This document shows, in pieces, positions 279 to 46,190 of a stretch of DNA of 64,000 nucleotides. A program made the translations under genes and the position numbers. Position 1 is the stretch's first letter. The number at the start of each line of letters is the position of its first letter. Under the pieces are notes generated by a model. It did not search any database and was not told the origin of the DNA. It saw only the letters and a program-made list of their open reading frames with translations. The stretch comes from Nothopassalora personata (taxonomy: Eukaryota > Ascomycota > Dothideomycetes > Mycosphaerellales > Mycosphaerellaceae), in assembly GCA_033816765.1 (NCBI GenBank), contig CM066298.1:1798001-1862000 (forward strand). The letters run 5' to 3'.

Positions 279-2266
279 TGGAACCAGGAGGGAAACATGT
301 GTATACTTTGCGGCTGATAAGCTGCGTCACGGCCGCGAGACAAATGTATATGTACGACAGAGTCATGAGGGCGTTTTGCATCGACTTGTGGATAGGGGGT
401 GAGAGCCATGGTGTATAGGAGCATTAGATCTGGGACGCTCACGCTATGAACCTCAGATTTGGTTGCTTCATCCTCTCTCATAATTAACACATGCTCCTTC
501 CACCAAAGGTATATGACCTCCTTAGAATTTCACATACATCCGAAGAAAATTCCCATAAAACTCAACGGCACGGCAGTCGAGTCGAGTCGAGTCGAGCGAG
601 TCCTGTGACGATTCCATTGCGCTTCTCTGCTGGTCCGGCTGGCTTTTACATTCAGCATTTACAGCGCTGCAAATCGCACGCCGTACGCGCAGGCATCGCC
701 GTTGAGACCAAGTGAAATGGAAATCTTGCCACATTTTGGAATGGGTTTTGCATTTTTGCGGAGCTGCTTATCTTATGCACTGAAGCTCGAAGGGATAGAT
801 GCAACATGGTTATCGTCGAGCTGCGGGCGATTCTGTACGGATTTGCTTTGATGTCGCTGGTGGGGGAGACGTTTTGAGGGTGCGACTCTCTTCCCCCCCC
901 CCCCCCCCCCCCGGGCGGTGATGGTAGCGGTGAGGTTAGGTGGTAATCTCAAGGAGGAGGGCTCGGCCATCTGATGATTGGTATCCCCGATCCAAAAGGT
1001 ATATATGTCAGTCGTACTACAGTGTAGGGTATGCGTGGTCAAGATTAAGTGTGAGGTCTCATGTGCAGCTTGTGCTATTGGCTTCGTCAGAGCTGTGAGT
1101 TGTGGTCAATCAGTGGGTTGAGATCATTCGTTTTTGCTCTGGGACTGCCTCCCAGCGTTCGCTGTGCAAGAAGATGATCCCTTCGCGTTGGGATGTCTGT
1201 GTGCATGCATCATAGGTTGCTTATGCATTTACACAACAGATGTCGCTAAGGATTTTGCATCTTCGCCACAAAGATCTAGGACCTATGTAGATCAGCAGAA
1301 TGTACGTTTCGGAACCAGGCGTCTTTACATCAATGGTAATACCACCTGTCAGACGTGTTGGCAAGACGTGCATGCATGGTTCGCGACGACAGCTTTGCGT
1401 CTCATGGCCAGCCCTTTCGAGGCTAGCATGGCACGCCTTTCGATGGGCATCGTTGAGCTGGTGGTGATCGTTTTGCTTGCGAGATACCTTCAAGCGCATC
1501 AGATGCTGAGTTCAATCGGCTGTGTTTGTCTCCTCTGCGGTGCATTTGGTTGCCAGTACTTCTAAACATGTAGGATTTGTCCACGGATGAGCTTTGCCGC
1601 GAAGGTCATCAATGATCTGCAAAGAGGAAGCAGATTTTCGAGATTCTGGCAACACAGTGCAATCAAAGTATCCATAATGTGGTGCCATATCAAATGTCGT
1701 TGTGTTTGGTGATCTTTTTGCTCTCTTCCTTGATTACAGGATCTTGGGCCAGCGCTCCCGGTGGTTAATGATATGAGCTTCAGCACTCTGCTATGCTCGA
1801 CGGTGCTTGCTGGCTCGATGGAGTGCCTGTTAGTCGTCAGAAGCGCGTGGTACTCCCATGATTTCAACACTCAGCAATCATTCGTTAACCTGTACGACGG
1901 CAAGCGTCTAGGCGCTTAGGCCAATGTTCACTGTTCTTTTCGCTCTCCTCTTTCACCTAAAAACGTGCCGCTTATTTCGCGTCTGGAAATATTACCACAG
2001 TCACTGGAACCATTCATGCTCTTTCGAAATCTGCTTCTGGTGGCATATGATCACTGTCGCGTGAATTGCCTATCTTCAAGTTTCTGCCTCCGCAACGCCT
2101 CGCTATGCCTGGTTGTGACACTTTTGGAATCTCAATCCCAGATTCTGACCTCACCCCTCCAACGGCAGACTCTTGCTCGCCGTATCGATTACTCTGCCCC
2201 CTCCCCACAAGCCGCTGCAGCTTCGACGCTCGTAGTCGTTCGATCGTGCTAATTTGTCGCTGCTCT
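279..2266. other. Intergenic stretch without a supportable gene
   Basis: Open frames here are short, mutually overlapping and carry no recognisable motif. The longest, 1134-1565 on the plus strand, is Cys-rich with two hydrophobic stretches but has no supporting context. The stretch contains a (GTCGA)4 microsatellite at 576-595 and a homopolymer of about 20 C at 893-912. It lies downstream of SSS1. Confidence 0.5.
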
Positions 2267-2639
2267 TTATGCACCGCCGACCAGGATGTTGTTCACGGGA
2301 ATGTGGACTGACGGAACGTTAGCAGTCTTCTTCCACCAAGATCTCCTTCGGCGCGGATCGCTGCGGCTACCGCGCTTCATGTGTCAGACATACTCAGCTT
2401 GACAACGTATCCAATAACTCCCATAATTATGAAGCCCATGCCCACGGCTTGTGCGATTCGGAGGAACTCGCGCTTATCAGCTGCACCACAATTATTAGTA
2501 TCGTACGCCCGCTTCCCCTGGGCGACGACCGCCTTCGCGCCCCTCACAAAGACGTACGCTTGCTGCATCGTGTGAGAAATTGCCTGCCGTCCTTGGCGAA
2601 CTCTCTTGGCATCTCCAGAAGGTCCTTTGCTTGGTCCAT
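2267..2639 (-). CDS. SSS1: Sec61 gamma subunit of the ER protein translocon, three exons
   Basis: The reconstructed gene has exons 2639-2558, 2480-2394 and 2307-2267 on the minus strand, giving 69 residues. Introns are 77 and 86 nt, with donors GTACGT and GTATGT and acceptors TGCAG and GTCAG. The product starts MDQAKDLLEMPREF, carries the SecE/Sec61-gamma signature (KPDKREF followed by IAQAVGMGF) and ends in HIPVNNILVGGA, all typical of the family. It is a single-span tail-anchored subunit that clamps the Sec61 channel in the ER membrane. Phases agree at both junctions and the length matches the usual ~70 residues. A reading of exon 2 alone would miss both termini. Confidence 0.95.
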
Positions 2640-2798
2640 CGCGTCTGATTGTGATGTGTGAGTCGCGGAGATATGGAGTCTGAGATGGGGGGTATTGTGA
2701 GTTGGCGTGAGGTGGTGGTAGAGTAGTGTCGCAGTGGTGTAGAAGTGTGGCCTCTTTGATAGATCGCGAGGTTAAAGCCTAGGTGTCCTCCACTTTCC

Positions 2799-3060
2799 TC
2801 AGGGATGGCATTCGGCAGTCGCCGAGATGCGGGCCAAGGACGCTAGTCGAACTATAAATCGAGCACAGCAGCACATGTCGATGCACAAATGCTGCGATAT
2901 CAAAGGCCTGTAACGACTTTGACGATCCAGGAACAACATATCGTCGATTTCAAACATAATCAACTCTTCCCACAAGCTCAAATCGCCATATGAAGCCAAG
3001 ATGTGTGGCGTGAACCCGCCACCTCGGTCCCTTGGCTCGGCTGTGATCCGACAGCGTGCA
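2799..3060 (-). pseudogene. Ankyrin-repeat-like relic
   Basis: The minus strand reads a segment resembling one and a half ankyrin repeats: a GGFTP motif, then an LASYGDL helix, then an EELIMFEID segment followed by a LDRQSR turn. It stops at 2799 and has no credible start. The spacing fits ankyrin repeats, but the second unit is scrambled, so it is probably a decayed fragment. It overlaps the 5' flank of the secreted-protein gene at 3297. The assignment rests on pattern similarity only. Confidence 0.35.
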
Positions 3061-3296
3061 TCCCGCCACTACGAACTTACCTTTGCTCCAGTCCCTCCGT
3101 CTTCCAAGTTTCCATTCTCTTCACCATCTCCACCGACTGTCGTTACATCCAAACTCCACATCAGCTTCACCAGGACCTCGCAGCCTCGCACGCCATATAC
3201 ATACATCAAGGATCTGGACGCGCCACGAAGCGCAAAGCGAAGCAAAGCCTGCAGATTCTACAAAGTGGCGACCGCGACGTGAACATTGAAACAACC

Positions 3297-4011
3297 ATGA
3301 CTGCACGCAGTGGCGCTATATCACGATTCTCGACCTTTTTGATATTTTTCTTGTCTTTCGCCAACATTATACATGCGGTATGTCCTTCGCCTGGCTTCCA
3401 GGGAGTACCTTTGCCGCGGGGTTTTGTTCGTATCAGACCACGTCAAAGCTGTAGTCTAGCAAACCTCATACGACTTATCACCGAGGCATCGTTCGTCTAC
3501 AACAGGCTGGGGAGGCGAAGAAAACTCTGCTATGGGAGAGCACTGGACATTCGATGCCGATAACGTTTACTGACACACTCCACAGAAAACGAACACCATC
3601 TGCCGCGGCCAATGGGGCTACCTAAACGGCAGCGCAGACCTTCCTATCGCGTTGGACCACTTCATTTCCGAGCAGAAGGGTATTGAAGCTGATTGTTTAC
3701 CTGCACGGTCTGGGAAGGGAACCTGCCATGACGTGGAGGGGCTTGTGGGATTGCAGGGTTATGGATTGGGGTTGGCTTGGTGTAATGACGTGAGTGCTCT
3801 TCTGCAGGATGGACGAGGAGTCCTGGATGGATCGCGAGTGATGTATGGCTTGCTGACGAGAGAACAGAATGATCACAGGCTCTGTCTGAGCCACACGAAC
3901 TTGGCGAGACGACTGCAGTGGACCATGTTCAACTGCTGGCAGATGAGCGAGCAATTTGCCGGGCAGACACTGTACGATGACAACACCAATGTCATCGTGA
4001 AGTCGTTGTGA
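3297..4011 (+). CDS. Small secreted cysteine-containing protein, effector-like, with an internal stop
   Basis: Exon 1 (3297-3377) encodes exactly 27 residues that form a signal peptide (MTARSGAIS, then a hydrophobic core ending in HA). It is followed by an 82-nt intron (GTATGT...CTAG), exon 2 from 3460 to 3789, a 78-nt intron (GTGAGT...ACAG) and exon 3 from 3868 to 4011. The mature part has six cysteines and no motif I recognise. Exon 2 contains an in-frame TGA at 3571-3573. The stop lies inside a 21-nt GT...CTGAC...CAG segment (3565-3585) whose removal keeps the frame. The gene is therefore either a recent pseudogene, spliced by an extremely short intron, or translated by readthrough. Size, secretion signal and Cys content fit a candidate effector, which is inference. 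Confidence 0.55.
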
Positions 4012-4093
4012 GCGGAGCGAGCAAGTGCGAGATTGTATTTCGCACAGCAGGGTGTGATGGTTGTTTTAGCATGGCGTTGGTGCAATCATGGGT

Positions 4094-5399
4094 TTACGCA
4101 TAAATGGGTTTCAAGCTGATCTGTGGTCGTAGTATCTCGACCTCTTCTACTTTTACAGACAGAGCAAATGCGATTTCTTCGTGCTCCGAGGGCTCATGGC
4201 CGCCATACCGTTCAAGTCGTAGCTGCGACTCGAGCTTCTGCGGCAAAGCGCGCGGCTGAATAAGAAGTCCAGCCATCAGCAGAATGAGCCAGCTCCAAGG
4301 GCAGCCATTAGGTCAGACCAACCACCTGAGCGTACCTCTCGCCATCTTCGAGTCCTGGGGTTCGTCCCTTCACAAACCCATCCGTCACTCTCCGCAGCAC
4401 AGCCAGAGTGAACTTTCCGGACCATCGCGTGCCTGCATGGTCCATTGTATCGACCTCGACTACTGCAGCAGCGCAGTCAACTGCCCAGCGCCACATCGGA
4501 GAGTCGCAGCTCACTTCATCGAGTGCCTGCGACATTTCGTCGGCACAAAGAACGACGGCCATCGCATAATGGGCATATCGACCACGGCGGAGCAGTGCCT
4601 GCATAATTGCAGCTCTGAAGTTGGCATCGTCGACGTAGTCGCCGAGCGCCCAGAAGGCCAAGAAGCTCTCGGTCCTTATCAAGTACCGGGTGACCATACC
4701 CACCGCATCGCCTTGGCTGATGTCGTCTACGAGTTCGGCGATGTTTCCGGGTTGAGTGTAGCGCCATGCAAGGTACGCATGGAAGATCTCGGGACGGTGG
4801 TCTGGCAGCTTGACCGTCTTGTCGATGGACTCTGTCCAGCGTGTTCCTGTGAGCGCGGCCTTGAAGAATTTAGAGTGCTAGCAAAGGATGTCCTTGTGGT
4901 TTTGGAAGGTCTGGCTGTCGTCTCCCTTACCCACGATGATGGTGGCGACTTCGTCGAATGTGGTTCAGTTGAATGTCAATTTCAATCACCTATAGTCGAT
5001 GCAGGTGTCTTACCTGATGCGCTTGCTATCCGGATGGTCCTTCTGTGCCGTCGCTCGGGCGCTTGTCACCTGTGTTGGACTCGTTGGTTGCCTGCATCGT
5101 CTTGCCCTGCATTGGTGCACGAGGTGGTCGAACTGGGGGGATGAGGTTGAATGTGTTTCGAAAGTGGGAAATTGACGTTGGTGGCCGCCGACCGTGTCGC
5201 CGTCGTAGGCGATAGGTGTGTTCGAGCCGCTGCATTTGATACTGCCGTAACGGTAGGTGGTGCCATGTTTGCCCGTGTCAAGCTCCTGCGTCGAAGGTTC
5301 GTGGATTTCACGAGGCTTGAAGGCTGTGGTGGAAGGTTGTTGGGAGAATTGTTGCTTGTACTGGAGGATGTGGGTTTGTCTGTTGACATGGTGGTGGTG
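4094..5399 (-). pseudogene. Decayed BTB/POZ-domain protein gene
   Basis: On the minus strand, 4965 to 4308 reads a BTB/POZ domain: an ATIIVGKG strand, an FQNHKDILC motif, SKFFKAAL, RWTES, a VKLPDH segment and a helical C-terminal part typical of the large BTB families of Dothideomycetes. A TAG stop at 4878-4880 sits between HKDILC and SKFF, where family members have an ordinary residue. Upstream, a Ser/Pro-rich segment starting with MSTDKP at 5399 lies in shifting frames with no consistent splice solution. A downstream frame (4276-4094) also looks coding but does not join in phase. I therefore read it as a pseudogene. BTB proteins of this kind are presumed adaptor or regulatory proteins of unknown role. 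Confidence 0.6.
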
Positions 5400-8567: not shown

Positions 8568-8572
8568 GCTAT

Positions 8573-8718
8573 ACTTGATGCTGGGGCCCATTCACTGGTC
8601 CCACCGGTTTTGCCGATGCACTAGTCCGCATTAGGCAGGACCCCTTTTTTTTCGAGCTTATCTCTCTCTCTCGCTTTCGTAGATCTTCTTCAATAACATC
8701 AATCTACTCACATTATCT
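8573..8718 (+). repeat. 5' LTR of young copia element
   Basis: This 146-bp LTR starts ACTTGATGCTGG and ends CACATTATCT, lacking the usual TG...CA ends if the GCTAT duplication is right. It contains an 8-T run and a CT-rich tract. Confidence 0.9.
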
Positions 8719-8730
8719 GGTTATGAGCAC
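8719..8730 (+). promoter_or_regulatory. Primer-binding site of young copia
   Basis: GGTTATGAGCAC matches the complement of the initiator tRNA-Met anticodon arm at the first 10 bases and 11 of 12 overall. It lies directly 3' of the LTR. Confidence 0.7.
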
Positions 8731-8910
8731 CCTCAGCGCTTACGACTGCGCGCATACCTTCGAACGACATTGTTGATTGTATCCTGCTGATTGCGCGTGT
8801 CCGCGACTTCATGCGACCAAACGCGACAGCAGCAAACATCTTCAGCCAAGACCCAGTGGGCAACTTGGCGAGTATCGCAGTGACACCTAGTTGGTGCTCT
8901 GCAGTGGTGG

Positions 8911-11907
8911 ATGGATACTGACGATAACGGTAACATCACAGGACTCGAGGTACCACTGGCACAGCAGTCTGTGACCGGGGACCAGAGTCAGCAACAACAG
9001 CAAGCCGAGTCGGCTGCTGTAACCAAGAAGAAGCTTCCAGCAATAGCGACTACGAGTCGCATCTTCAGCAACATGGTTGGTCGTAGTACCAATAGCACCC
9101 CTGGTGTCAGCAAGCTCCAGGGCAAGGACGACTATCCGAGATGGAGCGACATGCTCGAGTCAGTCCTGCGTGGCGAGCAGCTGTATGGATTTGTCGATTC
9201 AACAGCACTCAAGCCAAGACCTACAATCCGTCCGAGTGAACAGCAATACGAGCTTGACGACCGGATTGAGGCATGGGAGGCGAAGAAGTATCAAGCTCGC
9301 GCCCTCATCATCGCCAACTGCAGTCAGTCTATCGCCGACAACTGCAAAGCCTATCAGGCTCCGGATGGACTATGGGATCATCTCAAATCAACATATGGCC
9401 AGACCGGCAAGTCCGAGGAATACTCGTTGTATCTGGACTTCGAGTCACATGCTTACAGTGGCTCCAACCTTGACAAGTATTGCCAGCAGTATCAGGCAAA
9501 GCTTGCCAATCTCAAGAACACAGAACTGGCCATATCCAAGGCCCAGGCTATGTTCCGCTTCCTGTACCAGATCGCGCCCTACTTCCCAGCATTCGCCTCA
9601 TCAAAGCGCGAACAGCTGAGGCAGATGACTGGCAGGATCGAGGACAGCACCACCATCACACTCGAGAAGGTGATTGGTGATCTGCTTGATGAGGCGGCTG
9701 CTCAGCAGAGCGAGACCGCAAACCTTGCAGCAAAGCAGACTACTCCCACCCCACCCGCCAACCCACAGGGCAATGGCGGCAATGGCAACCGTGGTGGCGG
9801 CGGCAATCCACGTGGAGGCCGAGGTGGTCGTGGCCGTGGCAAAGGAGGCCGCGGTAACGGCAACGGTGGCAACAACCAGCAGCGTCAACAGTATGACCCA
9901 TGCCATGGTTGTGGCAGTACCACTCACCAACCTGTAACTTGCTGGAACCTACATCCGGAACTTGCACCTGCTGGATGGAAACCAAAGAACCCACCACAGC
10001 AGAACGGCAACCAGAATGGCAACCAGCAACAGCGTCAGCAGGTGAACAACACCACTGACCACCCTCAGCAGCAGCGCGCCGGAGAGACCGCTCAATTTGC
10101 GGCTCACGGCATGAACAACCTCGAGGATCTGATGACTCCATACAACGGCAACCACAGCATGTATATGGCTGCCGAGGATGACATTCAAGACACCTCCGCA
10201 CTGCTGGCAGCGAAGAGCCCAACCGACTGGGTTGTGGACTCTGGCTGCACTTCTCATATGACTAACGAGCTGAGCAATATGATGGATTATCGGCCCTGCA
10301 ATGTCCCTATTAGGACAGGCAAGGGCACCATCACTGCGACAGCCTGTGGCATTATCCAATTGGACCTGTATGGATGCGGCATCACCTACTTCTCGCAGGT
10401 GCTGTACGTGCCAGGCCTTGCAGCCAATCTGATCTCGACAGAGGCTCTCCGCCGCAAGGGTGTCTATTATCGTAACGACGACCAGATCCTCTTCACAAAG
10501 GGGAATGGTGCGCGTACGGTGGCACACTGCTACAGTCACAATGGACTGCCATTCCTCAAGCTAAAGCATTCACCGACTGCTTTGGCATCATCTAAGGTTG
10601 AGCCATCTATCGCCGCGACTGGCGACCTGTGGCACAGACGCCTTGGACACATTCACAGCCGCAAGCTAGTGCAGCTTCACAACGATCAGCGCATCATCAT
10701 TGTCGGCAACGGTGACCTCAGCAAGCACCCACGCGAATGCGTACCATGTCGCATGGGACTGGGGCACAAAGTCTATAACCGCATACCTATGGTGCGACCG
10801 TCAACACCATACTACATCATCGCAGCCGATGTAGTGACAGTCCGCAACCTTGGGCTTGGCAAGGAGAGATACTTCACGCTATTCACTTGCCTCGCCAGCC
10901 TGCAGCGAACAGTGTTCTGTTCAGCGCAGAAGAATGGCGCTGCCCAGCATATCCGCACCGTTGTCCGTCATGTGAAGACAGAATACAATGCCAGCATTGT
11001 GATCTTACGCATAGATGGAGGCGGCGAGTATGGAGGCACCGCACTCACCCAGCTCTCACAAGATGAGGGCTTCACACTTCAGATCACAGCACCTCATTCA
11101 TCAGAACAGAATGGCGGTGCGGAGGTCAGCAATCATATCGTGTGCGTCCAGTCACGCAAGCTACTGATTGATGCTGGCCTGCCAGTGGCACTCTGGCCAG
11201 AAGCTGTGCAGGCTTCGGTCTATCTACTCAACCTGACTCCGAGTGCAGCCCTCAAGGGACTGTCACCTCAGGAAGTCATCAACACGTGGCAAGGCAAGGG
11301 CGAAGTGAAGCCCAGCCTGTCACACCTCAAGGCATATGGATGCCGCGCCTTCGTGTACGACCACAGTGTCGGCCGAGGTGAGAAGTTTGACTCCCGCTCA
11401 TTGGAGGGCAAGCTTGTTGGATACGAGAGCCGCACCATCTACCGTGTCTATGTTGCTAAGGCGCATAGAGTGTTCCGTACCAAGGATGTTCAGTTCATTG
11501 AAGGCAAGGAGCCTATCACTGCTTTGGCCGAGGAGCCTGAAGCTGATGATGAATACATCTCTCTGGACGACATCTTCCCTGTAGAGCGCAACCACAAGGC
11601 ATCGACTCAGCCAAAGCGCGCTGGAGCCGAGCGTGGTGTGGCTCCTGGGGGTGGTGATTCTGGGGGTGTAGCTACACCTAAGAACATCACTATTATCAAC
11701 CGCCCTGCTGAGACACCAGTCCAGCAGGTGAATGAGGACTTGGCCCAGGAGGTAGTTGACAGCTATCAAGACACCGCTCCGGACGACTTTCCGGAGGTGC
11801 AGCCAACAACACCTCCCAAGCCATCTGTCGAGGATGATGATGAAGACGACTTTATCACACCTCCTGATAGCACCTGTTTTGCATCTAGAGCCTCGTCATG
11901 GGGGTGA
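8911..11907 (+). CDS. Copia Gag-protease-integrase polyprotein without reverse transcriptase
   Basis: The 998-residue ORF starts at the first ATG after the primer site, and its TGA ends on the first base of the 3' LTR. Residues ~70-290 form a copia-type Gag (UBN2-like). Residues ~260-330 are Gly/Arg/Asn-rich. A perfect CCHC zinc knuckle lies at C331, C334, H339, C344. The aspartic-protease motif DSG is at 443-445. The pre-integrase zinc motif comprises H575/H580 and C610/C613. The integrase core has D640, D702 and E738, with exactly 35 residues between the last two. An acidic, proline-containing tail follows and the protein ends where the reverse transcriptase normally begins. Catalytic residues for processing and integration are all present, so the product could serve its own RNA if reverse transcription is supplied in trans (inference). 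Confidence 0.93.
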   Translation: MDTDDNGNITGLEVPLAQQSVTGDQSQQQQQAESAAVTKKKLPAIATTSRIFSNMVGRSTNSTPGVSKLQGKDDYPRWSDMLESVLRGEQLYGFVDSTALKPRPTIRPSEQQYELDDRIEAWEAKKYQARALIIANCSQSIADNCKAYQAPDGLWDHLKSTYGQTGKSEEYSLYLDFESHAYSGSNLDKYCQQYQAKLANLKNTELAISKAQAMFRFLYQIAPYFPAFASSKREQLRQMTGRIEDSTTITLEKVIGDLLDEAAAQQSETANLAAKQTTPTPPANPQGNGGNGNRGGGGNPRGGRGGRGRGKGGRGNGNGGNNQQRQQYDPCHGCGSTTHQPVTCWNLHPELAPAGWKPKNPPQQNGNQNGNQQQRQQVNNTTDHPQQQRAGETAQFAAHGMNNLEDLMTPYNGNHSMYMAAEDDIQDTSALLAAKSPTDWVVDSGCTSHMTNELSNMMDYRPCNVPIRTGKGTITATACGIIQLDLYGCGITYFSQVLYVPGLAANLISTEALRRKGVYYRNDDQILFTKGNGARTVAHCYSHNGLPFLKLKHSPTALASSKVEPSIAATGDLWHRRLGHIHSRKLVQLHNDQRIIIVGNGDLSKHPRECVPCRMGLGHKVYNRIPMVRPSTPYYIIAADVVTVRNLGLGKERYFTLFTCLASLQRTVFCSAQKNGAAQHIRTVVRHVKTEYNASIVILRIDGGGEYGGTALTQLSQDEGFTLQITAPHSSEQNGGAEVSNHIVCVQSRKLLIDAGLPVALWPEAVQASVYLLNLTPSAALKGLSPQEVINTWQGKGEVKPSLSHLKAYGCRAFVYDHSVGRGEKFDSRSLEGKLVGYESRTIYRVYVAKAHRVFRTKDVQFIEGKEPITALAEEPEADDEYISLDDIFPVERNHKASTQPKRAGAERGVAPGGGDSGGVATPKNITIINRPAETPVQQVNEDLAQEVVDSYQDTAPDDFPEVQPTTPPKPSVEDDDEDDFITPPDSTCFASRASSWG

Positions 11908-12052
11908 CTTGATGCTGGGGCCCATTCACTGGTCCCACCGGTTTTGCCGATGCACTAGTCCGCATTAGGCAGGACCCCTTTTTTTTCGAGCTTATCTCTC
12001 TCTCTCGCTTTCGTAGATCTTCTTCAATAACATCAATCTACTCACATTATCT
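11907..12052 (+). repeat. 3' LTR of young copia element
   Basis: This is the 146-bp copy identical by eye to 8573-8718, including the 8-T and CT-repeat lengths that usually change first. This indicates a very recent insertion. Confidence 0.9.
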
Positions 12053-12082
12053 GCTATAGTAGGAGAAAGGAAAATAGGTCTA

Positions 12083-12869: not shown

Positions 12870-13001
12870 CCCAGCTCTAGGAACAGTCTCCTATAGAGCA
12901 TACCTAGCTCTAGGAACAATCTCCTATAGAGTATACCTAGCTCTAGGAACAATCTCCTATAGAGCATACCTAGCTCTAGGAACAATCCCCTATAGAGCAT
13001 A
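12870..13001 (+). repeat. 33-bp tandem repeat, four copies, in outer copia
   Basis: Four near-identical 33-bp units (core CTAGCTCTAGGAACAATC followed by TCCTATAGAGCATAC) differ at a few transition sites. 33 bp is 11 codons, so the ancestral polyprotein probably had an 11-residue repeat in the integrase-RT linker. Confidence 0.85.
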
Positions 13002-13319: not shown

Positions 13320-14800
13320 ATAGAGCTAAATGGATTAGGGCAATTAGAAAGGAATTTAACTCCTTAGAAGACATAGAATATATTGTATAGATCCTATTAT
13401 AGAAAGTCCCTAAGGGTAGGAAACTACTTATAGGAAAATAGGTCCTACACTATAAGTATCTTCCTAATGGGTCTATTAAGAAGCGTAGAGCTAGATAGGT
13501 AGCAAAGGGGTTTACTTAAAAGTAAGGGACAGACTATATTAAAACCTTTGCTCTAACCCTAAGGCTACTAACAAGTAGGATTCTCCTAGCCCTATACACA
13601 GTCCTTAACTAGAAGAGGAGATAGATTAATGTTAAAACAGCATTTATAAACCCTAACATTGATAGACCTTTATATATTAAACCACTAGAAGGGGCAGAAC
13701 TTATTAAGAAAGATCTATCTAACAAAGTCCTAGAAATTAAGAAGGGACTATATAGATTAAAACAAGCTACAAACCTCTAGTACTATAATGCTAAGGAAGC
13801 TCTAGAAGAATTAGGCCTAAAGAGACTTAATTCTAATGTATGTCTTTTTTAGGGGGAGAATCTTTTAGTTCTCCTATATATAGATAACTTTTAGATCTTT
13901 AGCGACAGTAATTAGAAGATTAACAAGTTCATTGCTAGACTAAAGAAGAAGTACTCTATTAAAACTATTAACACTAACCTTTTCCTAGGCATATAACTAA
14001 AGAGTGAAAAGAATAGAGATCTCTATGTCTCCTAAAAGCACTATGCTTTAGAGAAACTTTAGAAACATAGCCTAGACTTAGCTAAAAGTGTTAAGTATCC
14101 CCTTAACCGCCTATATAAAGCTTATAAAGAGCAATGCAATATATAGGATTACAATCTGTTTAACATATTAATTAGAGAACTCTAGTACCTAGCTAACTAG
14201 ACTAGGCTAGATATCTCTTATGCAACAAACCACCTAGCTAAATTCTTAGCTAATCCTTTAGCAGAACATATTGCTGCAGTAAAGCATGTTTAGAGATACA
14301 TTGCTAGAACAATTGACAAGTGCCTAATCCTTAGAAAAACACAATCCCTAAAGCTAGAGATCTATACAGACTCTAATTTCTCTAGAGATCTAACAGGCAG
14401 ATTAACCTTAGGACTCCTAGTCAAAATGACTAGAAGTCCTATTATCTAGAAATCTAACCTATAGAAGGAGATAGTGCTGTTAAGTACTAAAGTAGAGTAT
14501 GTGGCCTTAACTAAATGCTATAGGGAAGTAATATAGTTGAGAAATCTACTCTATAAAACCTAGAAAATGACTAACTACAAAGCTTAAGCCTTCAAGATCT
14601 TTGTAGACAACTAGTCTACTATTAAGCTAGTTAGAGATTACACTAACTATAGAAGAACTAAGTATATTAGACTAAGGAACCATTTTTGCAGACATGTTTG
14701 TAAAGAAGACTTAATTGTACTTAAATATATCCCTACTGTACAGCAGCTTGTAGATTGGCTTATAAAGCTAAAGTTACTAAACTACATTCTCTAAGGGAGG
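13320..14800 (+). pseudogene. RIP-destroyed reverse transcriptase and RNase H of outer copia
   Basis: Reading through stop codons, the plus frame shows the start of a copia reverse transcriptase (KWIRAIRKEFNSLE at ~13328), an AKGF block at ~13500 and an RNase H-like end near 14750 (QLVDWLIKLK). Nonsense codons are predominantly TAG/TAA. Confidence 0.75.
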
Positions 14801-41400: not shown

Positions 41401-43577
41401 TTAGGGAGGCTAAGGAAGGACATATCCTTAGAGTAACCTATTTACCATTCAATTATTTAGCAGAGTAGCCTAGTAACAGCCTAGCTAAGAAAGCTATTTA
41501 TGCAACTTTCCTAGCCTCTAAAGAATATAGGGGAATTTTAGAAAATCGATAAGCCAATTAAGATAAGCTTACTAGATCTCTAGGAAAAGAATGTTACTAG
41601 GACACAAGTAACTACTCTTAGATTATCCCTTAGTAAGAGGAGGGCTAACTATAATATTAAGGGCTATAAATAGAAACAGAAAGCCCTAAGATCTATAGTC
41701 CCTATACCTAAACTAGCTACTAAAGTAGGAGAAGCAATAGACCTCTTAGAGAACCTTACTACTTACTACTAAGCTTTCTTTATAGCTATGCAATTAGTAG
41801 ATAATTTAGTACTATAGGATAGTAAATTCCTAGAAGAAGTTAAGGAGATAGCCTTTATAGCAACTACAGAAGTCATTATATATAAGCAAGAGATCCTAAT
41901 TCCAAAGTCCTATAAGGATGCTATAAATAATAAGAAATAGGGACACCTTTAGAAGGAAGCCACCTTTAGAAGGAAGCAATCTAGAAGGAGCTAGATGCTC
42001 TATAGAGCAACAACACCTAGGAGAATGCTATTCTACTAAAAGGAGCAAACTTAGTTACGTTAAGATAGGTCTTTAATGTTAAAAGAAGCATTAGTAGAGC
42101 CATTAAAAAGTTTAAGGCTAGGCTAGTTGCAAGGGGCTTTTTATAGAAGTTTAGTATTAACTTTATAGAGACATTTACGCCTACAGTTAGATAGGACACC
42201 CTTAGGGTATTTATAGCTATTGTATACAAGAAGGATCTCTATCTTTACTAAGTAGATATAAATAATGCGTTTATAGAAAGTACCCTCTATAAAGACATCT
42301 TTATATTACTACTACTAGGAGTTAAGCTTCCACTAAACATAGTGTTTAAGATCCTTAAAAGCTTATATAGACTTAAGCAAGCAGCTAGAGATTAGAATCA
42401 ACTCTGTGTATTAAAGCTTAGAGAGATTGGATTCACATAGTTAGAGGTAGATCTATGCCTACTTATTTATAAGAAAAAAGAGATTATGATTCTTATATAT
42501 GTGGATAACATTCTAATTGCTGCACTAAAGTTAATAGATGTTCTCTAGTTCAAAAGAGAACTTAGCAAAGTCTTTAAGATTAAGGATCTTAGTAAACCTA
42601 AAAAGATCCTTAGCATAAGAGTTACAAGGGATAGAAGGAGAGGAATCCTAAAACTTAACTAGGGACACTTTGTTAGGGACAACCTTGCTAAGATAGGGAT
42701 AAACTATAAGAAGGTAGTACCTATACACTTACCTATAGACAGCTATAAGGCTCTTAAACCTTTAAGCTATATAGATAAGAGGTATAATAAGGTAGAGTAC
42801 TAGAGTATTAATAGTACATAGATATAGCTAGCAACAATTATAAGGCTAGACATTGCTTTTACCCTAGGAAGGATAAGCTTATTTATAAGTAACTTATCCA
42901 CCTACTACATAAAGGCTTTAAAGAAGATTACAAGATATCTAAGGTTATATCCTAATCTTAGCCTTGTCTTCTCTAGGCATAGAGAAGGATGCCTAGTTAG
43001 ATACTATAACTCTAATTATGCAATAGACAAAGCAGATAGAGTCTCTATCCTTAGGTATGTCTTCTTCCTCTATAGGGCACTAGTCTCCTAGATAAGCAAG
43101 AAGCAAAAGTCTATAGCAATATCTACAATAGAAGCTAAATACATAGCTATAAATATATATATAAAGCAATCCTAATTCCTAGCTTTACTACTAAGGGAGA
43201 TGGACTGTCTAGAGTTAGTAGGAGACTGTTCCTATTAACTAAGGATCACTAGAAACTAGGAGACTATGTTAAGCTTAAGACTAGTCCAATTAAGAGGTAA
43301 CAACTAAGCTGCCCTTACCCTAGTAAGGGATGCACATGTTTATAACAAGTTAAAGTATATTAACATTGCCTATAATGCTGTTAGGAAACTTTAGTAGAAA
43401 AGGCTTATTACTATTAAGTACACCCTAACATCTAAGATAGTTGTAGATAGGTTTATAAAGCTAAAGACTAGTCTACACTTCTAGAGGTTTATAAGCTAGC
43501 TCAACCTGTTATAGAGGTCTAAATACTACTAATAGGAGAAGAGTAGACTATGACCTCCTATGTAAGATAAGTAGGAG

Positions 43578-44849: not shown

Positions 44850-46190
44850 CGTATAGGCGTAGCCTATGCTAAGGAACAGGGGCCCGCCCCTTATAGAGAA
44901 GAAGAATATATACGATAACATTACGACGGACTAACTTACGGACACCCTAGAACTTTAAAGATAATAGACCTAATATAGCGCAGCTTCTTATTCCTATAGA
45001 TAAGACTTAAGGTGTTACGCTACATTAAACAATGTATACACTACTAACGAAACAAGGCTACGAGACATACGAAATACGGTTACCTACAGTTTAGGACACT
45101 ACCGACAAAACCATAGGACGAAGTTATAATAGACTTTATTACGAAACTCCTACCGTTAAAGGATTAAGTTACGAAACAATTATACGACATAATACTAGTT
45201 ATAGTTAATAGACTTACGAAATACGCACACTTTATTCCTACATTAGAAACATACAATGTAGAGTAGCTCGGATACCTCGTACTAGATAGACTTATCCGAT
45301 ACTACGGATTTCCTTAAGCGTTTATAACGGATAGAGACAAACTATTTATATCGAACTACTAGAAGACGCTTATAGGAACTATCGGAATTAAACACAAACT
45401 GTTAATAGTATATTATCCGGAGACAGACGGACAAACCGAAAGGATAAACTAAACGCTAGAACAATACCTACGACACTATATTAACTACGCATAAGACAAC
45501 TAGGTTTTACTATTGCTAATAGCATAGATTGTACTAAACAACTACAAATTAGAGACAACTTTAACGACGCTATTCTATACAAACTTTAGAAAGGATCCTA
45601 ACCTATTCGAAATACCTAGATCCTACCTATAAGCTAAAAGAGCAATCGTGACGACGGATACTCTTAAGGAAGTATATAAAGAAGCGTATAAGGCGATTAA
45701 TAATGCACAATATAAACTATCTTAATAACGGTAAGACACGAGAAAAATAGCACCTCTACTAAAAGAGGGGGATAAGGTCTATCTCCTTATAAAAAACTTA
45801 AGAACAAGAAGATAGACTAAGAAGCTAGATTACGTTAAGGTCGGACTATTTTTAATCGATAAAGTCGTAGGACTAGTTAACTACCGACTACGGCTACTAC
45901 TAGACGTAAAAATCCACCTAGTCTTCTATATCTCTAAGCTAGAACTAGCGGACACCGAGACACCTTACTAAGAGAGCTTCTATTTCGAGCCGGAAGTAGA
46001 GAACGAATTTGAAGTCGAAAAAATCCTAGATAGAAGAGGTTAGCGATACCTTATTAAGTAGAAAGGATACGACAAATTAGAAAATACCTAGGAACTAAAA
46101 GAACACCTACAGAACTGTTAGCAAAGGATCTAGGAGTACTAAAAACGTACTAGTAGATTAACCTCTACTAGAGACTAATCTACTAGAAAG
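44850..46190 (+). pseudogene. RIP-mutated integrase and chromodomain of a Gypsy chromovirus
   Basis: The plus frame shows the integrase zinc region (~45020-45080), the core with VNRLTKYAHFIPT (~45210) and a FITDRDKLF Asp block (~45330), and a YYPETDGQTERIN block (~45410) containing the third catalytic residue. A C-terminal chromodomain follows (VEKILDRRG and LIK-KGYDKLENT segments, ~46010-46100). Order and motifs identify a chromovirus. Protease, RT and RNase H are missing upstream, so it is 5'-truncated. Confidence 0.75.

Follow-up and report, generated by a model that had tools for sequence, protein, structure and literature searches.

Recurrent loss of reverse transcriptase in two copia-type families of Nothopassalora personata, examined from a recently inserted 998-codon element

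The element described here lies at positions 8573-12052 of a stretch of 64,000 nucleotides of the Nothopassalora personata genome (contig CM066298.1, hereafter the window). It is a copia-type long terminal repeat (LTR) element whose single open reading frame (ORF) encodes Gag, protease (PR) and integrase (IN) without reverse transcriptase (RT) or RNase H (RH). In the family to which it belongs (family A) and in a sister family (family B), RT loss by template switching arose repeatedly, and RT-less derivatives now outnumber RT-bearing copies.

Structure of the element

The features of the element are collected in Table 1. The repeat search returned 147 nt for the LTR pair because the base following the LTR, G, is common to both; the LTR itself measures 146 bp. 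The identical LTRs, the flanking 5-bp repeat and the G-rich tract had been described in the initial annotation, and all three were recovered by repeat search and sequence reading. The insertion, flanked by a target-site duplication (TSD), is recent, as that annotation had proposed. The annotation also reported a primer site: a primer binding site-like sequence is present here, and likewise in the compound element described below and in one family B copy. It fits the anticodon arm of initiator-Met tRNA, to which the primer site of half-tRNA primed copia elements is complementary, but two initiator-Met-like sequence patterns run on the genome gave zero tRNA matches.

The ORF is intact and ends with a TGA at 11905-11907, which overlaps the 3' LTR by one base, in agreement with the initial annotation. 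Matches above the Pfam cut-off were obtained for copia-type Gag, Pol_BBD and SH3_retrovirus, whereas gag_pre-integrs (24.9 bits, cut-off 28.4) and rve (15.2, cut-off 32.6) fell below it. The protease motif, the CCHC knuckle and the three acidic residues of the integrase core were found at the residues first assigned to them, and the integrase aligned with the Ty1 integrase structure 7z0h (E 2.8e-10) with D640, D702 and E738 on acidic residues. The order of the domains is that of the Ty1/copia lineage, with copia-type Gag, pre-integrase region, IN and SH3 preceding the position of RT. RVT_2 gave no Pfam match in the 998-aa ORF, which bears out the reported absence of RT; in a longer copy of family B it comes after SH3, and it is also present in the RT-bearing family A copy (E 1.4e-42).

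Table 1. Features of the element (window coordinates) and deletion classes (positions joined, on the RT-bearing reference copy of each family defined in the text)
Feature	Position	Strand	Evidence or remarks
5' LTR, 146 bp, termini ACTTG...TATCT	8573..8718	+	matches 3' LTR base for base
3' LTR	11907..12052	+	repeat search and sequence reading
Target-site duplication GCTAT, left copy	8568..8572	.	sequence reading
Target-site duplication GCTAT, right copy	12053..12057	.	sequence reading
Putative primer binding site GGTTATGAGC, directly after LTR	8719..8728	+	sequence reading
Single ORF, 998 aa, Gag-PR-IN, no RT-RH	8911..11907	+	ORF list, Pfam, genome search
Gag (Retrotran_gag_2, residues 84-268)	9160..9714	+	Pfam, E 9.6e-12
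CCHC knuckle, residues 331-344	9901..9942	+	sequence reading
Protease-like barrel (Pol_BBD, residues 440-517), DSG 443-445	10228..10461	+	Pfam, sequence reading
Integrase: pre-integrase zinc region, core D640/D702/E738, SH3 to residue 868	10609..11514	+	
Deletion junction, CTGATA microhomology	11864..11869	+	3297 joined to 5343 (RT-bearing relative)
Polypurine-like G-rich tract ATGGGGGTG	11898..11906	+	same tract in RT-bearing family A copy
Family A class	3297/5343		five copies, five sites; class of the window element (998 aa)
Family A class	3729/5250		two copies
Family A class	3437/5170		one copy
Family A class (1068 aa)	3445/5321		three copies; 34-nt filler
Family A class	3624/5321		two copies
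Family A class	3665/5220		two copies
Family A class	3412/5320		one copy, stop in IN
Family A class	3614/5311		one copy
Family A class	2210/4841		one copy, deletion into IN
Family B class	3855/5375		nine copies, six read
Family B class	3727/5116		six copies, four read
Family B class	3233/5036		one copy
Family B class	3214/5117		two copies

Copies, deletion classes and junctions in families A and B

Counts given below cover the scored candidates of each genome search (40 of 123 matches for the LTR, 46 of 440 for the ORF, 118 of 719 for RT, 133 of 413 for integrase and 150 of 312 for control family C). Among the best 40 LTR matches, 38 were 95-100% identical to the query and correspond to 19 family A elements, the last two being 77-78% identical. 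These elements comprise one copy with RT-RH, 17 RT-less copies with Gag-PR-IN and one copy deleted into the integrase. The ORF and integrase queries both returned the same 18 copies with a complete integrase, and the 19th was recovered as an integrase fragment in the integrase search. All 19 are flanked by 5-bp TSDs, and DNA-level duplication or assembly artefact was ruled out by the own flank and TSD of each. The initial annotation had suggested looking for copies with the same 3' end of the ORF and for an RT-bearing relative with the same LTR and primer site, while allowing that the element might be the only one in the genome: five copies carry the 998-aa junction among the 19 of the family, and a near-identical RT-bearing element was found.

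The LTR pairs of the 17 RT-less family A copies show zero substitutions over 2459 aligned positions, and are of the same length in 12 copies and of one-base different length in five. Termini of the ACTTG...TATCT type, not TG...CA, are present in 18 of the 19 family A copies. The remaining copy (L048, on C2) has a 5' LTR starting with ACGTG and one substitution between its LTRs, at the third base, beyond the 2459 aligned positions; this TSD-flanked insertion carries a short deletion near the LTR start in both LTRs, and the shortened start was therefore copied to both ends. The LTR pair of the RT-bearing copy differs by two bases in a T run, and that of the IN-deleted copy is identical. In the five copies of the 998-aa class, LTR lengths (143, 144, 146, 146 and 147) are equal at both ends of each copy, as expected if each arose through one reverse-transcription round of its own.

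When RT from the longer family A copy was used as the query, matches of 89-100% identity correspond to one family A and 11 family B copies, all others being at most 75% identical. Copies with a complete integrase thus number 47 in the two families, 12 with RT and 35 without (17 of 18 RT-less in family A; 18 of 29 in family B, where 11 carry RT). Stops in Gag-PR-IN were found in 2 of the 11 RT-bearing family B copies, and one RT-less family A derivative (L047) carries a stop in IN.

Deletions were placed on a 5529-bp RT-bearing copy for family A (ORF 339-5123, 1594 aa; 3' LTR from 5386) and on a 5555-bp copy for family B (ORF 352-5133, 1593 aa). The 18 deleted family A copies form nine deletion classes, and family B adds four more; a further, truncated family B copy is cut off in IN beside degenerate DNA. 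Compared with the RT-bearing relative, the 998-aa class lacks 2045 nt, that is RT-RH and part of the 3' untranslated region (UTR). The earlier description of a non-autonomous family is retained as regards the many RT-less copies, but rather than a family of separate design the element represents one of nine deletion classes of an RT-bearing element. In 12 of the 13 classes the 5' breakpoint (3214-3855) does not reach into the integrase, and all eight RT-less family A classes have their 3' breakpoint within the 3' UTR, 43-216 nt from the 3' LTR.

Junction overlaps are 6, 0, 3, filler, 5, 4, 3, 4 and 5 nt in family A and 5, 10, 3 and 8 nt in family B (the 3 nt, in L062, lying within a 10-nt match with one mismatch). 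Microhomology of 3-10 nt is thus present at 11 of 13 junctions, random pairs averaging 0.69. Neither GT-AG nor GC-AG was found at any of the 12 filler-free class junctions (8 in family A, 4 in family B), even when sliding within the microhomology was allowed. Apart from the three copies of its class, the 34-nt filler is present at a single site in the genome, C6:2565141-2565174, which is a possible source of the captured template; the switch at this junction apparently passed through a third template. Microhomology, non-splice junctions and the 34-nt patch are marks of template switching.

The placement of the deletions was evaluated with the deletion class, not the copy, as the unit (the truncated family B copy, L068, and two relics described below, L073 and L074, were excluded). 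Gag-PR-IN through SH3 is spared in 8 of the 9 family A classes, against 1.56 expected when the observed lengths are kept (P ~2e-6) and with P 4e-5 when both endpoints are random. In family B it is spared in 4 of 4 classes, against 0.89 expected (P 0.002); this test is weaker since these classes were mostly found through Gag-PR-IN, whereas family A was collected by LTR. Between the integrase and the polypurine tract, 12 deletions remove 57-84% of the stretch, above random pairs (P ~2e-7 in family A and 0.001 in family B, all classes being taken as independent). The rule, far from random, is that Gag-PR-IN and the ends are kept and most or all of RT-RH is lost.

A distant copia family (family C, RT 35% identical) was used as a control. 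All 12 of its stop-free integrases lie in open frames 1574-1807 codons long, and each has an RT match close by (among the best 118 of 719 RT matches), and no RT-less derivative was found among these 12 copies. General copia decay as the sole cause is contradicted by these long ORFs, family C being the one family examined in this respect. Older relatives of families A and B were also considered: 13 stop-riddled copies share 62-76% identity over at least 200 integrase residues, two shorter fragments being counted as pieces. Among the RT matches listed, RT lies within 2 kb in 10 of these relics, at about 7 kb in one, and near none of the other two, L073 (C4:765000-766057) and L074 (C4:3325938-3326900), which carry internal deletions (~3585/5101 and ~3782/4845, family A coordinates). 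RT loss is rarer among the relics (2/13 vs 35/47 in families A and B), and the internal RT deletions of relics indicate that it is also older than the newest burst.

One family B derivative is part of a compound element (C1:7352466-7362310, loci L066, L067, L069 and L070) of 9.8 kb, with the target duplication AGAAC on both sides. It starts with a family B 5' LTR and primer site, followed, inside the copia 5' UTR, by a Ty3/gypsy pol without gypsy 5' LTR (RVT_1, RNase H, H2C2, rve integrase and a Tf2-1-like SH3, with a chromodomain match below cut-off). This pol runs into gypsy LTR sequence, which joins family B at position 199; the 3' part, which includes the 3' LTR, is an RT-less copy placed in the 1127-aa class on the length of its open frame. 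Four further genomic matches were found for the 5' end of the gypsy body, and the one whose start was read has a gypsy LTR end at that point. The compound element, known from one copy, could be a template-switch product, or a gypsy cDNA may have been joined into a family B copy of older date.

Origin and propagation of the RT-less derivatives

We consider it probable that the window element is an RT-minus derivative of an autonomous copia-type element, of a kind that has formed recurrently and is copied with RT supplied in trans. The polymerase would jump during reverse transcription from the 3' UTR of its template to a site directly downstream of the integrase coding region, guided by a few nucleotides of homology, so that RT and RNase H are dropped. 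The shortened genome would retain LTRs, primer site, polypurine tract, Gag, protease and integrase, and its RNA would be copied by the RT of RT-bearing copies and inserted again. The RT-bearing family A relative, which shares LTR, primer site and tract with the window element, is a possible donor. Both the supply of RT in trans and the use by the derivatives of their own Gag-PR-IN are inferred; RT may be shareable because little of it is needed, and Gag, PR and IN may act best on the RNA that encodes them. Gag-PR-IN may be kept either because these proteins favour their own RNA or because the deletion mechanism tends to spare them.

Several points weigh against this reading. The evidence consists of genome sequence. 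Among Gag-PR-IN variants in 17 copies, 9 are synonymous (6 expected), 10 are missense and 1 is a stop, so that the synonymous excess, the mark of purifying selection, is not significant (P 0.11; L019 and L020 excluded); family B provides only 2 variants (L058, with a 12-nt insertion, excluded). The copies being very young, intact ORFs by themselves prove little. The TSD-flanked IN-deleted copy and L047 show that IN in cis is not strictly required. When the threshold is set at E738 rather than SH3, the family A placement gives P 2e-4. Moreover, three family A classes have common 3' endpoints (5320/5321), as do two family B classes (5116/5117), so that classes may not be independent, through second-step deletions or a hot spot; with common endpoints counted once, the rule holds in 6 of 7 classes in family A (P 7e-5) and 3 of 3 in family B (P 0.013). 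Finally, open-frame length was the only basis for placing 3 of the 9 members of one large family B class and 2 of the 6 of the other.

The derivatives could instead be passive hitchhikers that take all proteins from RT-bearing copies, their ORF surviving through the position of the switch only: a switch early in minus-strand synthesis, near the 3' end, would lose the 3' part. This is a real possibility, although we would not expect it to prove correct. It agrees with the closeness of the 3' breakpoints to the 3' LTR in the eight RT-less family A classes, with copies too young for ORF decay and the non-significant result of the selection test, and with the fact that the IN-deleted and IN-stop copies are both TSD-flanked insertions, but it leaves unexplained why the 5' breakpoints of 12 of 13 classes stop before the integrase is reached.

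RT-less copies might also represent a genome-encoded division of labour rather than parasites, restoring an excess of Gag and being repeatedly selected for it. Since Gag and Pol share one frame in the autonomous copies, these would make Gag and RT in equal amounts unless spliced; other elements obtain Gag excess via frameshifting or splicing. We regard this as unlikely. Rather improbable, too, is that the RNA from gag to IN is retained, and not the protein, because it holds cis-acting packaging or reverse-transcription signals: the retained interval is the same in families A and B, but about 3 kb of RNA would be required, and the copy without 2210-4841 is still TSD-flanked. A one-off deletion by DNA repair leaving a dead copy, which the existence of an RT-bearing relative with near-identical LTRs might have suggested, is rejected as hardly credible, the junction being present in five copies, each with its own flank and TSD, and eight further family A classes being known. 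A reverse-transcribed splice product, as in Drosophila copia with its spliced Gag-PR RNA, would confine the deletions to one ORF block, as observed, but is equally implausible and was rejected on the absence of splice dinucleotides at the 12 junctions and the variation of the boundaries between classes.

Genomic surroundings and comparison with known systems

Insertion targeting to AT-rich DNA was not supported for the family, GC being 0.46-0.57 in 28 of 34 flanks (17 copies; considered without a genome-wide baseline). Just downstream of the element, a 33-bp tandem repeat (3.9 copies) lies at 12873-13001 of the window. Degenerate relics of copia RT (25-27% identity), along with a gypsy-like one, sit in or beside AT-rich blocks at 13466-14389, 42072-43088 and 44904-45488. 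The neighbouring genes, together with AT-rich blocks containing retroelement relics filled with TAG and TAA, suggest a filamentous fungus that underwent repeat-induced mutation in the past.

The element resembles autonomous Ty1/copia elements in its Gag-PR-IN order, copia-type Gag, integrase alignable to 7z0h and 5-bp TSD; it differs in its LTR ends and in the absence of the RT and RNase H that autonomous copia elements encode, which the deletion from 3297 to 5343 removes. The 17 RT-less family A copies with Gag-PR-IN occupy several sites without a copying enzyme, as is the case for non-autonomous elements. Loss of coding capacity is the usual description of non-autonomous LTR elements, and known examples include elements that keep Gag only, lose Gag or lose everything. 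Plant TR-GAG and zeon/diguus-type gag-only elements likewise retain LTRs and part of the coding capacity, but here a PR barrel and IN are retained, and the deletion occurs as 12 junctions in two families. BARE-2, TRIM, LARD and Cassandra also rely on proteins of autonomous elements, but have lost Gag or all coding capacity, whereas the window element has an ORF of 998 codons. Mouse IAP Delta1 copies have an internal deletion and a retained ORF, and full-length copies are believed to mobilise them in trans; they belong to an endogenous retrovirus of vertebrates in which one deletion type predominates, in contrast to the many here that converge on one gene content. Defective-interfering genomes of RNA viruses also arise by repeated polymerase-jump deletions, keep their ends and outnumber their parent, but the copies described here are chromosomal and retain structural and integration genes. 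We know of no other case of convergent RT-RH loss with Gag-PR-IN retained, which is not a claim that none is in print.

RT-RH excision recurs as 12 junctions (9 with common 3' endpoints counted once) that leave the same protein set. These copies form a set of natural experiments that can separate the retrotransposon proteins required in cis from those open to sharing. They also record template switching by the polymerase in DNA, one patch having its match at a site beyond the element, and they bear on how a family can be driven to depend on few RT-bearing copies, of which one was found in family A.

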